Of a DNA stretch of 43,378 bases, positions 8,195 through 36,247 are shown piece by piece. Position 1 is the stretch's first letter. Each line of letters starts with the position of its first letter. The stretch is from an uncultured Clostridium sp. (lineage in GTDB: Bacteria > Bacillota_I > Bacilli_A > Acholeplasmatales > Anaeroplasmataceae), in contig CAMNHY010000009.1 in assembly GCA_946540005.1 (NCBI GenBank), forward strand, positions 1 to 43,378, written 5' to 3'. Under the pieces are notes generated by a model. The model saw only the letters and a program-made list of their open reading frames with translations, did no database searches and was not told the DNA's origin. A program made the translations under genes and the position numbers.

Positions 8195-8234
8195 AAAAAT
8201 TTTTCCTCCATAATTTTATTTTGTTTTTTCCTCT

Positions 8235-8314
8235 GTTTATCATCATTGCTTATTTGTCATATGCACCGCCCCATCTATTAATATAGACGTACATGACGGT
8301 GAGCTCCGATAAAC
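8235..8314 (-). promoter_or_regulatory. Structured 5' leader of rpsB, candidate S2 autoregulatory RNA
   Basis: Between the promoter at 8337-8365 and rpsB the minus-strand RNA can fold into a closing stem GTTTATC/GATAAAC (8308-8314 with 8235-8241). Inside it, CACCG (8297-8301) pairs with CGGTG (8264-8268), a small hairpin TCTAT/ATAGA lies at 8274-8287, and GTCAT (8293-8297) can pair with ATGAC (8256-8260), giving a pseudoknot-like crossing. There is no terminator, so control would be at translation. S2 leaders are known in other bacteria; I cannot match this one to a named family. Confidence 0.55.
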
Positions 8315-8336
8315 ATGTGTTTTTAATGCCTTGTAA

Positions 8337-8365
8337 ATTATATCATAGCAAACTAATAATTACAA
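8337..8365 (-). promoter_or_regulatory. Promoter of rpsB-tsf
   Basis: Minus strand TTGTAA (8360-8365), 17-base spacer, perfect TATAAT (8337-8342). Transcription would start near 8330, giving a leader of about 135 bases before rpsB. Confidence 0.75.
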
Positions 8366-14210: not shown

Positions 14211-14245
14211 AATAATCACCACTTATGTTAATTTTACCATATTAC

Positions 14246-14274
14246 TTGATTTTTATCTATAAATATATGATAAT
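14246..14274 (+). promoter_or_regulatory. Promoter of CYTH-domain gene
   Basis: TTGATT (14246-14251), 17-base spacer, GATAAT (14269-14274) on the plus strand, 22 bases before the start codon. Confidence 0.55.
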
Positions 14275-14296
14275 GAGCCTAGAAAGAGTGGATATT

Positions 14297-14839
14297 ATGA
14301 TTAGTCATTTAGAAATTGAATTCAAAACTTTAATTGATGAAAAAACATATAATAATTTATTAAAAGAGTTTAATTTATTAGATAAAACATTCGTACAAAC
14401 AAATTATTATTTTGATACAAAAAATTACGATTTAATGGATAAAAAAACAGTTCTAAGAATAAGAAAAAAAGATCAATATAAATTGACCAAAAAAGAAAAA
14501 AATGAGTTAGGCAATCAAGAAACTAGTATTTATTTAACTGATGAAGAAGCTAATAAAATGCTTAAAAATGGATTTGATGCAAATATTATTAGCGAAGATT
14601 GTTATGTTAATTTAGTTACATCACTAAAAACTACAAGAACTAAAACTAATTATAAAAATGGAATAATCTTCTTTGATAAATCCGAATATAACGGAATTAC
14701 TGATTATGAAATAGAATATGAAGCATTAGATTATGAAGAAGGAAAAAAAGATTTCATAGAGTTTCTAAAACTTCATAATATCTTAGAAAAAACTCCAGTT
14801 TCGAAATCAAAAAGAGCTTTTAACTCTTTAAAAAAATAA
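14297..14839 (+). CDS. CYTH-domain protein (YjbK-like, triphosphate tunnel fold)
   Basis: A 180-residue protein of the CYTH/triphosphate tunnel metalloenzyme superfamily. The signature EIEFKTLI at the N-terminus, TNYYFDT near residue 33, the basic strand TVLRIRKKDQYKLTKKEK and the acidic YEIEYEALDYEEGKKDF fit a polyphosphate- or triphosphate-binding barrel lined with Lys, Arg and Glu. I start it at the ATG at 14297, after AGAGTGGAT, because the upstream in-frame ATG at 14225 gives an unrelated hydrophobic extension. The Bacillus homologue YjbK lies near nadK. Substrate unknown; inorganic triphosphatase activity is possible. Confidence 0.85.
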   Translation: MISHLEIEFKTLIDEKTYNNLLKEFNLLDKTFVQTNYYFDTKNYDLMDKKTVLRIRKKDQYKLTKKEKNELGNQETSIYLTDEEANKMLKNGFDANIISEDCYVNLVTSLKTTRTKTNYKNGIIFFDKSEYNGITDYEIEYEALDYEEGKKDFIEFLKLHNILEKTPVSKSKRAFNSLKK

Positions 14840-25627: not shown

Positions 25628-26155
25628 ATGAAAAAAAAGATAAGTTATTTTAAATCAATTAAATTAAGAGATCCTGCAGCTAGAAATAATTTACAAATAC
25701 TTTTTACCTATTCTGGCGTAAAAGCATTAATCAATTATAGAATAGCACATTGGTTTTGGAAACATCATATGAAATGTATTGCAGATTTAATTACATATCA
25801 TACTCGAAAGAAATATTCTATTGAAATACATCCTGCAGCAAAGATTGGTAAACACTTATTTATTGATCATGGTGCTGGTGTTGTTATTGGTGAAACTGCA
25901 ATTATTGGTGATAATGTTACTATGTATCACGGTGTAACTTTAGGTGGTAGAGGTACTTCTCATGGTAAAAGACACCCTACTGTTGGCAACAATGTAATGA
26001 TTGGTGCAGGTGCACAACTATTAGGTAATATTACAATAGGTGACAACACAAGAATCGGTTCTAATGCTACTGTATTAGAAGATGTTCCTGCAGGTCAAAC
26101 AGTAATTGGATATAAAGGAAAAGTTTTATATAGAGAACCTGATTATTCAATATAA
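25628..26155 (+). CDS. cysE: Serine O-acetyltransferase
   Basis: Acetylates serine with acetyl-CoA, the first step of cysteine synthesis. The left-handed beta-helix repeats are clear from [23 protein letters not shown] onward, with the catalytic Asp-His in [12 protein letters not shown] and the YHGVTLGG loop. [20 protein letters not shown] and [14 protein letters not shown] complete the fold. At 175 residues it is the short, EpsC-like form and lacks most of the C-terminal tail that binds cysteine synthase in longer enzymes. It has a good ribosome binding site (AGAGGAC) and stands alone on the plus strand without cysK nearby. Confidence 0.93.
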
Positions 26156-29455: not shown

Positions 29456-29485
29456 ATAAAAAAACGTCCCCAATCTAAGGACGTT
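29456..29485 (-). terminator. T-box regulated terminator before tyrS
   Basis: Minus strand AACGTCC/GGACGTT (arms 29479-29485 and 29463-29469) followed by seven Ts. It competes with the antiterminator built around the T-box sequence at 29491-29502. Confidence 0.88.
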
Positions 29486-29667
29486 AAATACGCGGTACCA
29501 CCTTAGTTCTAGATTTAATCTAGCACTTAGCCTTTTAACGAGAGGCACTCTTAGGTCTTGCTGAGTGTAATTTCATCAAATATATTTTATTTCTTTCACC
29601 AACCGAAATATCTCTAATTTTAAATATATTTAACTACTATGTTCAGGTCATCAACCTTATTAATATA
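29462..29667 (-). promoter_or_regulatory. T-box leader (tyrosine specifier) of tyrS
   Basis: The conserved T-box core GGTGGTACCGCG lies at 29491-29502 on the minus strand, just before the terminator. Upstream, CGGTTGGTG (revcomp near 29602-29610) is the conserved stem I distal-loop motif. The specifier is most likely TAC (Tyr) at 29567-29569, in the context GAAATTACACTC that matches the known tyrS pattern. Uncharged tRNA-Tyr would stabilise the antiterminator and allow tyrS and the downstream lipid kinase gene to be transcribed. Confidence 0.9.
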
Positions 29668-29672
29668 TTTGT

Positions 29673-29701
29673 ATTGTAAACTAGTTACAATTGATTGTCA
29701 A
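29673..29701 (-). promoter_or_regulatory. Promoter of tyrS T-box leader
   Basis: Minus strand perfect TTGACA (29696-29701), 17-base spacer, TACAAT (29673-29678). Confidence 0.8.
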
Positions 29702-34091: not shown

Positions 34092-34403
34092 TCATTTTTT
34101 ATTAATATAAAGTATTAACCCAAATATAATAATTAATGAAAAAATAATTGAAATAATAAACCTTTGTTTTTTAGTTTTAATATATCTATAAATAAATATT
34201 AAAATACCTACAACAAAATAAATGACCCAAGGTATTAAATTAGGTTTATCCATATTTTGTACAAAACCAACAATAAAAGTAACAATTACTAATATAATAA
34301 AACTTAATCCCCACACAAGAATTAAATAATCAGTATTATTCTTCTTCTCATCTATAATAGAATTATTAAATGATTTAATTATCTTCTTTTCTTCTTTATC
34401 CAT
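34092..34403 (-). CDS. Small membrane protein, three helices, unknown function
   Basis: A 103-residue protein: a charged N-terminus MDKEEKKIIKSFNNSIIDEK, then three hydrophobic helices near residues 26-46, 54-70 and 80-98, ending INKK. I start it at the ATG at 34403, after AGAGAGGA. The longer open frame to 34529 crosses the promoter of the small RNA on the other strand and gives unconvincing sequence. It lies 55 bases before the HesB-like gene and is divergent from the small RNA. No family recognised. Confidence 0.6.
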   Translation of the reverse strand: MDKEEKKIIKSFNNSIIDEKKNNTDYLILVWGLSFIILVIVTFIVGFVQNMDKPNLIPWVIYFVVGILIFIYRYIKTKKQRFIISIIFSLIIIFGLILYINKK

Positions 34404-34459: not shown

Positions 34460-34488
34460 TTGACAATATAAATGAATATTGATATACT
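34460..34488 (+). promoter_or_regulatory. Promoter of candidate small RNA
   Basis: Plus strand perfect TTGACA (34460-34465), 17-base spacer, TATACT (34483-34488). No coding gene follows on this strand before the terminator at 34555-34576. Confidence 0.75.
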
Positions 34489-34494
34489 ACAGTT

Positions 34495-34577
34495 GGACCA
34501 GGATAAGCGATTATCTCTGGAAGTCGCACACATTAATTTGTGTGCTCGGCATATAGTGGGTTAAACCCACTTTTTTA
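34495..34577 (+). ncRNA. Candidate small noncoding RNA, about 83 nt
   Basis: Bounded by a near-perfect promoter and an intrinsic terminator. Hairpin 1 is CCAG-GATAA-[GCGA]-TTATC-T-CTGG at 34498-34520, closed by a GNRA tetraloop. Hairpin 2 is GCACACA-[TTAATT]-TGTGTGC at 34526-34545. Hairpin 3 is the terminator GTGGG-[TTAAA]-CCCAC at 34556-34570. There is no start codon with a ribosome binding site followed by a useful frame. It does not match SRP RNA, 6S, tmRNA, RNase P or any riboswitch I recognise. Position is between a membrane-protein gene and the tRNA operon. Confidence 0.65.
34555..34576 (+). terminator. Terminator of candidate small RNA
   Basis: AGTGGG-TTAAA-CCCACT stem with six Ts at 34571-34576 on the plus strand. 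The minus strand has no T-run, so it serves the plus-strand transcript only. Confidence 0.85.
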
Positions 34578-34704
34578 TTTATTATATAGCTTGAATAAAA
34601 TATAAAGTTAAAAAATATGTAGTGATATGATGGCTATTTAGAAATTATATTCGAATGAGCTTTAAGTTTCATAAAAAAATAATAACATTATTAACAGTCG
34701 TAAA

Positions 34705-34740
34705 AAATAAAAAAAACACTATGTCATATGACATAATGTT
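34705..34740 (-). terminator. Terminator of tRNA operon
   Basis: Minus strand near-perfect palindrome AACATTATGTC/GACATAGTGTT (34715-34740) followed by a T-rich tract TTTTTTATTTTTT. It lies 14 bases past the tRNA-Gly CCA end. The stretch 34580-34704 is AT-rich with nothing recognisable. Confidence 0.75.
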
Positions 34741-34753
34741 GATTACTCTTTAA

Positions 34754-34827
34754 TGGAGCAGGTGATGAGAATCGAACTCACGTCAGCAGCTTGGAAGGCT
34801 GAGGTTCTACCATTAAACTACACCTGC
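34754..34827 (-). tRNA. tRNA-Gly (anticodon TCC)
   Basis: 74 nt including encoded CCA. Acceptor stem GCAGGTG/CACCTGC, anticodon loop CTTCCAA flanked by TCAGC/GCTGA, and T loop GTTCGATTC are all present. Last gene of the operon. Confidence 0.95.
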
Positions 34828-35257: not shown

Positions 35258-36247
35258 TTATTTTGTGTAGGCCTTTTTAATTAAAAATAAATCAGCCAAT
35301 GCAATAGCTACGGCATTTTCTAATACAACTGGCGCTCTTAACGCAATACATGCGTCATGTCTACCTTTAATTACTAATTCTTTAATTTTATTTTCTTTAA
35401 AATTATATGTTTCTTGTGCTTTAGAAATTGAAGCTGTAGGTTTTACAAATACATTAATAACTAAATCATTACCATTTGTAATACCACCATTTATGCCACC
35501 ATTATTGTTTGTGCTAGTTTTACCATTTTGATCAATAATTAAATCATTAAATTCAGAACCGTATAATTTTTCTCCTTCAAATCCAATACCAAATGATACA
35601 CCTTTAACTGCACCAATAGAATATAGGATATGACTTATATTTGATTCAACAGAGTCAAAGAATGGTTCTCCTAATCCTTTGTCAACATTCTTTACAATAA
35701 TTCGAATCTTTCCACCAATTGAATCACCATTTTTAAGAGCCTTATCAATTTCATTATCGAATTCTTCTTTGTTAGAATTATTATGTAAAGAAATAATATT
35801 TGATTCAAAATTATAATTAACAATCTTTTTTGCTACAACACCAGCAGCAACTATACCTAATGTTAATCTGCCTGAAAATGCTCCTCCACCTCTATAATCA
35901 TTAAATCCATTATATTTGATGTTTGCAGTATAATCACAATGTCCAGGTCTAGGATGATCAACTAAATTTGAATAGTCTGAATCATTTACATTCTCATTAT
36001 CAAATTTAATTAAAATAGGCGCTCCTGTTGTATATCCATTAAATACACCACTTAATATATGTGGAATATCTTTTTCAACTCTTGGTGTCATTCCTTTTTT
36101 TCCTGATTTTCTTCTTGATAAATCATTGGAAAAATCGTCAGCACTTAATTTTATACCTGTAGGTGTTCCATCAATTAAGACTCCAACACAATCACCATGA
36201 GATTCTCCAAATATTGAAACTTTAAATAATCTACCAAAACTATTCAC
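35258..36247 (-). CDS. aroC: Chorismate synthase
   Basis: Converts EPSP to chorismate with reduced FMN, the last step of the shikimate pathway. GESHGDCVGVLIDGTP near residues 14-29, SRRKSGKKGMTPRVE with FMN- and substrate-binding residues near 44-58, and DYRGGGAFSGRLT near 117-129 are present, and GRHDACIALRAPVVLE near the end carries the conserved RHD-like motif. Length 329 is at the short end of the family. The start is a GTG at 36247 that overlaps the TAG stop of aroE, with AAGGTGAT as ribosome binding site. Last gene of the aromatic operon. Confidence 0.95.
   Translation of the reverse strand: MNSFGRLFKVSIFGESHGDCVGVLIDGTPTGIKLSADDFSNDLSRRKSGKKGMTPRVEKDIPHILSGVFNGYTTGAPILIKFDNENVNDSDYSNLVDHPRPGHCDYTANIKYNGFNDYRGGGAFSGRLTLGIVAAGVVAKKIVNYNFESNIISLHNNSNKEEFDNEIDKALKNGDSIGGKIRIIVKNVDKGLGEPFFDSVESNISHILYSIGAVKGVSFGIGFEGEKLYGSEFNDLIIDQNGKTSTNNNGGINGGITNGNDLVINVFVKPTASISKAQETYNFKENKIKELVIKGRHDACIALRAPVVLENAVAIALADLFLIKKAYTK

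Follow-up and report, generated by a model that had tools for sequence, protein, structure and literature searches.

A short intergenic locus on the plus strand of the window (the whole stretch of 43,378 nt that was analysed) is probably transcribed as a real RNA, to judge from its sequence signals. The reading we prefer for it, held tentatively and at slightly less than an even chance, is an orphan, lineage-specific sRNA that acts in trans, lies beside a tRNA cluster and has a strong, probably constitutive promoter. The gene would be a stand-alone one of about 82-83 nt, limited to the species or to a narrow lineage of Anaeroplasma-like Acholeplasmatales. Five features argue for a real RNA: an extended near-consensus promoter, a strong fold, rarity of the arrangement across the genome, an island of high GC, and a terminator that serves no plus-strand gene. 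Against the preferred reading stand the lack of a homologue, the little unpaired sequence left for a long seed, target predictions that equal those of shuffled segments and, as a weak test, a tblastn search without a match to Hfq or CsrA. The elements of the locus and its divergent neighbour are as follows.

34092..34403, minus strand: divergent neighbour gene, 103-aa membrane protein, DUF6442-like (Pfam PF20040)
34460..34465, plus strand: -35 hexamer TTGACA, matching the consensus exactly (motif scans)
34480..34488, plus strand: extended -10 element TGA-TATACT, with TGn (TG at 34480-34481) and TATACT (34483-34488)
34495..34577, plus strand: predicted small RNA of about 82-83 nt, putative start and end; fold z -4.9; 45% GC
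34498..34520, plus strand: hairpin 1, CCAG-GATAA-(GCGA)-TTATC-T-CTGG, pair probability near 1
34523..34550, plus strand: hairpin 2 (MFE and pair probabilities)
34551..34554, plus strand: AUAU linker, unpaired probability about 0.9
34555..34576, plus strand: intrinsic terminator AGTGGGT-TAA-ACCCACT with T-run (motif scans)

Promoter, fold and rarity of the locus

The promoter TTGACA-N17-TATACT has a 17-nt spacer, a score of 11/12 and a TG ahead of the -10 hexamer. It ranks first among 15 promoter-like sites within a 2-kb region and is the sole 11/12 site there. Driven by this promoter, the RNA would start near G34495, 7 nt past the -10 hexamer, and would end at 34572-34577, as placed by the T-run of the terminator. 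Hairpin 1 consists of 9 pairs with a single bulged U and the GNRA loop GCGA. The core of hairpin 2, GCACACA/TGTGTGC at 34526-34545, has 7 pairs; the MFE structure lengthens it to ten by pairing GUC 34523-34525 with GGC 34548-34550. The terminator hairpin (34555-34571) has 7 pairs and the loop TAA, and is followed by a run of six Ts, the first of which closes the stem. The promoter, the GNRA-capped hairpin, the seven-pair hairpin and the terminator described in the initial annotation were thus all recovered by sequence reading and motif scans.

The predicted RNA has an MFE of -31.3 kcal/mol, against -17.2 +/- 2.9 for shuffled sequences (z -4.91), and none of 200 shuffles was as good. When the terminator is left out, hairpins 1 and 2 give -22.0 against -11.7 +/- 2.6 (z -3.96). 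Since the minus strand gives as good a fold (z -5.22), the strand of the RNA is assigned from the promoter and the T-run. As to composition, the predicted body (34495-34571) has 45% GC, while 75-nt non-coding windows of the readable host genome have a median of 25%. Of these windows, 1.8% attain the GC content of the body, and they include tRNA genes and leaders (ARAGORN, Rfam). Another GC-rich non-coding island of the window, at 8229-8338 upstream of rpsB, has no Rfam match and is possibly a ribosomal-protein leader.

How often does such an arrangement occur in the host? On both strands of the readable host genome (about 850 kb), no other promoter that scores 11/12 or more is followed by a terminator at a distance of 20-120 nt. 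Simulated intergenic sequence, 5 Mb in all, contained no such pair; the simulation states 166,682 intergenic bases, about 81 kb of which are N, and the result is unchanged. Five other intergenic modules of a promoter of at least 11/12 and a terminator were found within 250 nt. Four of them are Rfam elements (one T-box and riboswitches of the purine, c-di-GMP-I and SAM classes), and the fifth is a leader that precedes tyrS and carries the T-box motif AAGGTGGTACCGCG. As the other modules are T-box or riboswitch leaders, the arrangement marks genuine RNA elements well in this host. The tyrS leader (window 29463-29701, minus strand) consists of the promoter TTGACA-17-TACAAT, the T-box motif and a terminator, and Rfam reports nothing there at the gathering score. 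Elsewhere in the host genome, two THF riboswitches lie in tandem (L092, 9065-9279, minus strand).

Genomic context

Does the RNA belong to any gene? The initial annotation saw no coding frame at the locus. Literally this does not hold, since two frames, of 30 and 25 codons, run across the RNA; in effect it does, because both begin upstream of the site where transcription is predicted to start, and neither has a visible Shine-Dalgarno sequence. Its count of only two protein genes on the plus strand is borne out by the ORF list (14225-14839 and 25628-26155). The closest upstream plus-strand protein gene stops at 26155; on the downstream side all tRNAs and genes lie on the minus strand. With no associated plus-strand gene, the RNA looks like a stand-alone one of about 83 nt. 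The divergent neighbour has a weak DUF6442 assignment, with 27.3 bits against PF20040, where the cut-off is 25. On reading the sequence, it has GAGAGGAT upstream of its ATG and an extended -10 element TGGTATAAT at 34436-34428 on the minus strand. Since this promoter of its own lies outside the RNA, the message of the neighbour should start to the left of the RNA promoter and not overlap the RNA.

On the other side lies a minus-strand tRNA-Gly-Pro-Arg-Asp cluster with its own terminator; the cluster is conserved in the genus and also in several members of the family. The sequence adjoining tRNA-Gly differs in both congeneric genomes, G001 and G002. At this flank (window 34577-34754; loci L006 and L007), an XRE-like regulator is found in G002 and a short lipoprotein-like frame in G001, and the flank resembles an insertion hotspot. 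A search for an integration scar at the tRNA end found no second copy of any tRNA-Gly 13-mer in the window and no attachment-site repeat. The synteny search gave no clear orthologue of the neighbour proteins in the congeners. The RNA sits in a variable stretch beside a conserved tRNA cluster.

Two observations concern other genes of the host. The relatives of the chorismate synthase (window 35258-36247, minus strand) are a mixture of Acholeplasmatales-type and Bacteroidetes MAGs at about 50-65% identity, which suggests horizontal transfer. Its matches put the host near Anaeroplasma and Acholeplasmatales MAGs, a provisional placement given by the similarity of this one protein together with general likeness. 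Three tandem tRNA-Gly genes with anticodon ACC, which is unusual among bacterial glycine tRNAs, stand at the very end of a host contig (L084, 14620-14877), and the array may continue past the assembly break.

This context bears on one alternative: the locus may once have been a cis-regulatory leader, either riboswitch or attenuator, that lost its downstream gene in a rearrangement of the tRNA flank and is now orphaned, still transcribed but controlling nothing. The comparable promoter-terminator modules of the host are leaders, and the flank of the tRNA cluster does vary among congeners. However, no convincing Rfam leader match appears even at E 10, suboptimal folds offer no alternative that disrupts the terminator, and the hairpins are intact. 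We consider this origin unlikely.

Search for homologues

Is the RNA found in other genomes? BLAST of 141 nt against 60 relatives returned only AT-rich scraps of promoter and terminator, and within the genus no homologue appeared at E 10. Two covariance models were built, each from a single sequence, one of the whole RNA and one of the RNA without its terminator. The former found no homologue in 160 genomes of the order, 11 relatives and 395 genomes of the class; the matches inspected (order-level, and the best at class level) were bare terminators, one of them upstream of infC. The latter found none in the order genomes either, its matches being coding genes (L195, L194 and others by appearance) or a CRISPR-like array. 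This array, with the 36-nt repeat GTTTGCTAGGTATGTTATTCAAAGTATAAAGTGAAC, belongs to a family member (L198, about 1380-1680). Matches in phages and plasmids were to the AT-rich promoter only, and three sequence patterns searched in viral contigs gave nothing beyond that. No paralogue was found in the own genome. When the place was located through the tRNA cluster, G001 and G002 carried other sequence where the RNA would be. The genus is represented by three assemblies that are 63-76% complete, and the RNA may therefore occur in a sister species.

The initial annotation had named a lack of hairpin conservation in close relatives as counting against the RNA; neither DNA search nor covariance models found any homologue at all. 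Thus there is no covariation and no sign of selection, and comparative support for the hairpins falls away. Missing homologues do not show absence of function. The RNA, with no detectable relative in the genomes searched, is probably a small regulatory RNA of the ordinary, species-specific sort.

The same lack of any conservation favours another scenario, in which the sequence is a product of chance or decay and is purposeless if transcribed at all. From promoter density, chance alone would put a promoter scoring 11/12 or better in the 100 nt before a given terminator in about 0.6% of cases. Against the scenario stands a terminator with no plus-strand gene to serve, and coincidence leaves unexplained the two other hairpins, both perfect (z -4.0 once the terminator is left out), and the high GC amid AT-rich surroundings. 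The scenario is thus improbable, yet it deserves some weight.

Possible mode of action

There is a further question, by what means would such an RNA act? In the mechanism we favour, the stem-loops would keep the RNA stable, and it would act in trans through short pairing at a few exposed positions. According to the pair probabilities, the 5' GGA, the GCGA and UUAAUU loops, and the AA and AUAU linkers are open; the only clearly unpaired linkers are AUAU 34551-34554 and AA 34521-34522. Two unpaired segments had been proposed in the initial annotation as antisense seeds. Because GUC 34523-34525 pairs with GGC 34548-34550, most of both is lost: AA 34521-34522 and AUAU 34551-34554 stay open as suggested, and most of the named segments is paired in the ensemble. 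When the named segments were compared with 783 translation starts, their pairing energies fell within the range of shuffled segments. The seed idea is thus not supported, with segments mostly paired and predicted targets no better than those of shuffled seeds. The power of such target predictions is low, however, and the RNA may still regulate by base-pairing in trans, with a probability that we would place a little under one half.

One may ask instead whether the RNA binds protein, as a sponge or as part of a ribonucleoprotein, through its stem-loops and GNRA loop and without pairing to mRNA. Almost all bases lie in a stem or a short loop, a GNRA loop is present, and the predicted pairing targets are noise. 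On the other hand, no known family, repeated motif or partner gene is found, and tblastn gave no match to CsrA. Such a role seems rather unlikely. Still less likely is a structured RNA class not yet described, from an undersampled Anaeroplasma-like lineage, whose stem-loops act on protein and not as mRNA antisense.

Comparison with known RNAs

In Rfam 15 no family reaches its gathering threshold at the RNA locus; the best bit score is 18.1 and the best E-value 0.79. The initial annotation could not match the RNA to a known class, and this stands, for no Rfam family fits at the gathering score or convincingly at E 10. The promoter, the structure, the terminator, the absence of an associated plus-strand gene and the isolation in the databases are established at the level of sequence.

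The top bit score belongs to ctRNA_pT181 (RF00242), which like the RNA has hairpins followed by a terminator. This weak resemblance (18.1 bits, E 4.6) and similar architecture might point to an antisense or antitoxin RNA, directed at a small gene or at the replication or toxin gene of a mobile element. The score is far under the gathering score of 56, however, and the opposite strand has neither a replication gene nor a convincing hydrophobic toxin ORF. The limitation of plasmid, phage and viral matches to the AT-rich promoter speaks against it as well, and we regard it as the least probable of these alternatives.

Some well-known RNAs were considered and rejected. A bacterial small SRP RNA would be a single long hairpin, not three, and RF00169 has no match at the locus; it was also not found elsewhere in the incomplete host assembly. 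For a tracrRNA, neither Cas9 nor a convincing CRISPR array was found: a search of the three congeneric genomes, none of them complete, gave no Cas9, and the repeat scan of the readable host genome gave one match (L056), which looks like a coding repeat. That the 5' end of the RNA pairs with itself also speaks against a tracrRNA. In a CsrA-sequestering RNA, GGA motifs should be exposed; here they lie in stems or stem ends save the 5' GGA, and CsrA has no match. Single-sequence tblastn found neither Hfq nor CsrA in the readable host genome, which is a weak test as the assembly is 75.7% complete and about 81 kb of it stand as N. A T-box or riboswitch leader is rejected for want of an aptamer match in Rfam and of a downstream gene. 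The T-box, SAM, purine and c-di-GMP-I leaders of the host do share with the RNA a strong promoter, structure and an intrinsic terminator, but the RNA is shorter and shows no competing antiterminator.

Bacteria commonly have orphan sRNAs of such a kind, and the expected surprise is therefore small. Our literature search found no sRNA study for the Anaeroplasma-like lineage; if transcribed, the RNA would be a clear sRNA gene there and a neat case of an RNA gene without detectable ancestry. A promoter of its own, stem-loops and a Rho-independent terminator are usual for intergenic trans-encoded sRNAs. The RNA has the sequence-level marks of a stand-alone intergenic sRNA, with its own promoter, an intrinsic terminator and no associated ORF. 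In Mycoplasma, lineage- or species-specific sRNA candidates have been described (PMC5088518). Compared with the intergenic trans-encoded sRNAs of Firmicutes and Mollicutes, the RNA is a predicted one that differs in having no sequence relative in the genomes searched and no target that stands out from shuffled controls, while it resembles them as a stand-alone intergenic gene with narrow distribution and an intrinsic terminator.
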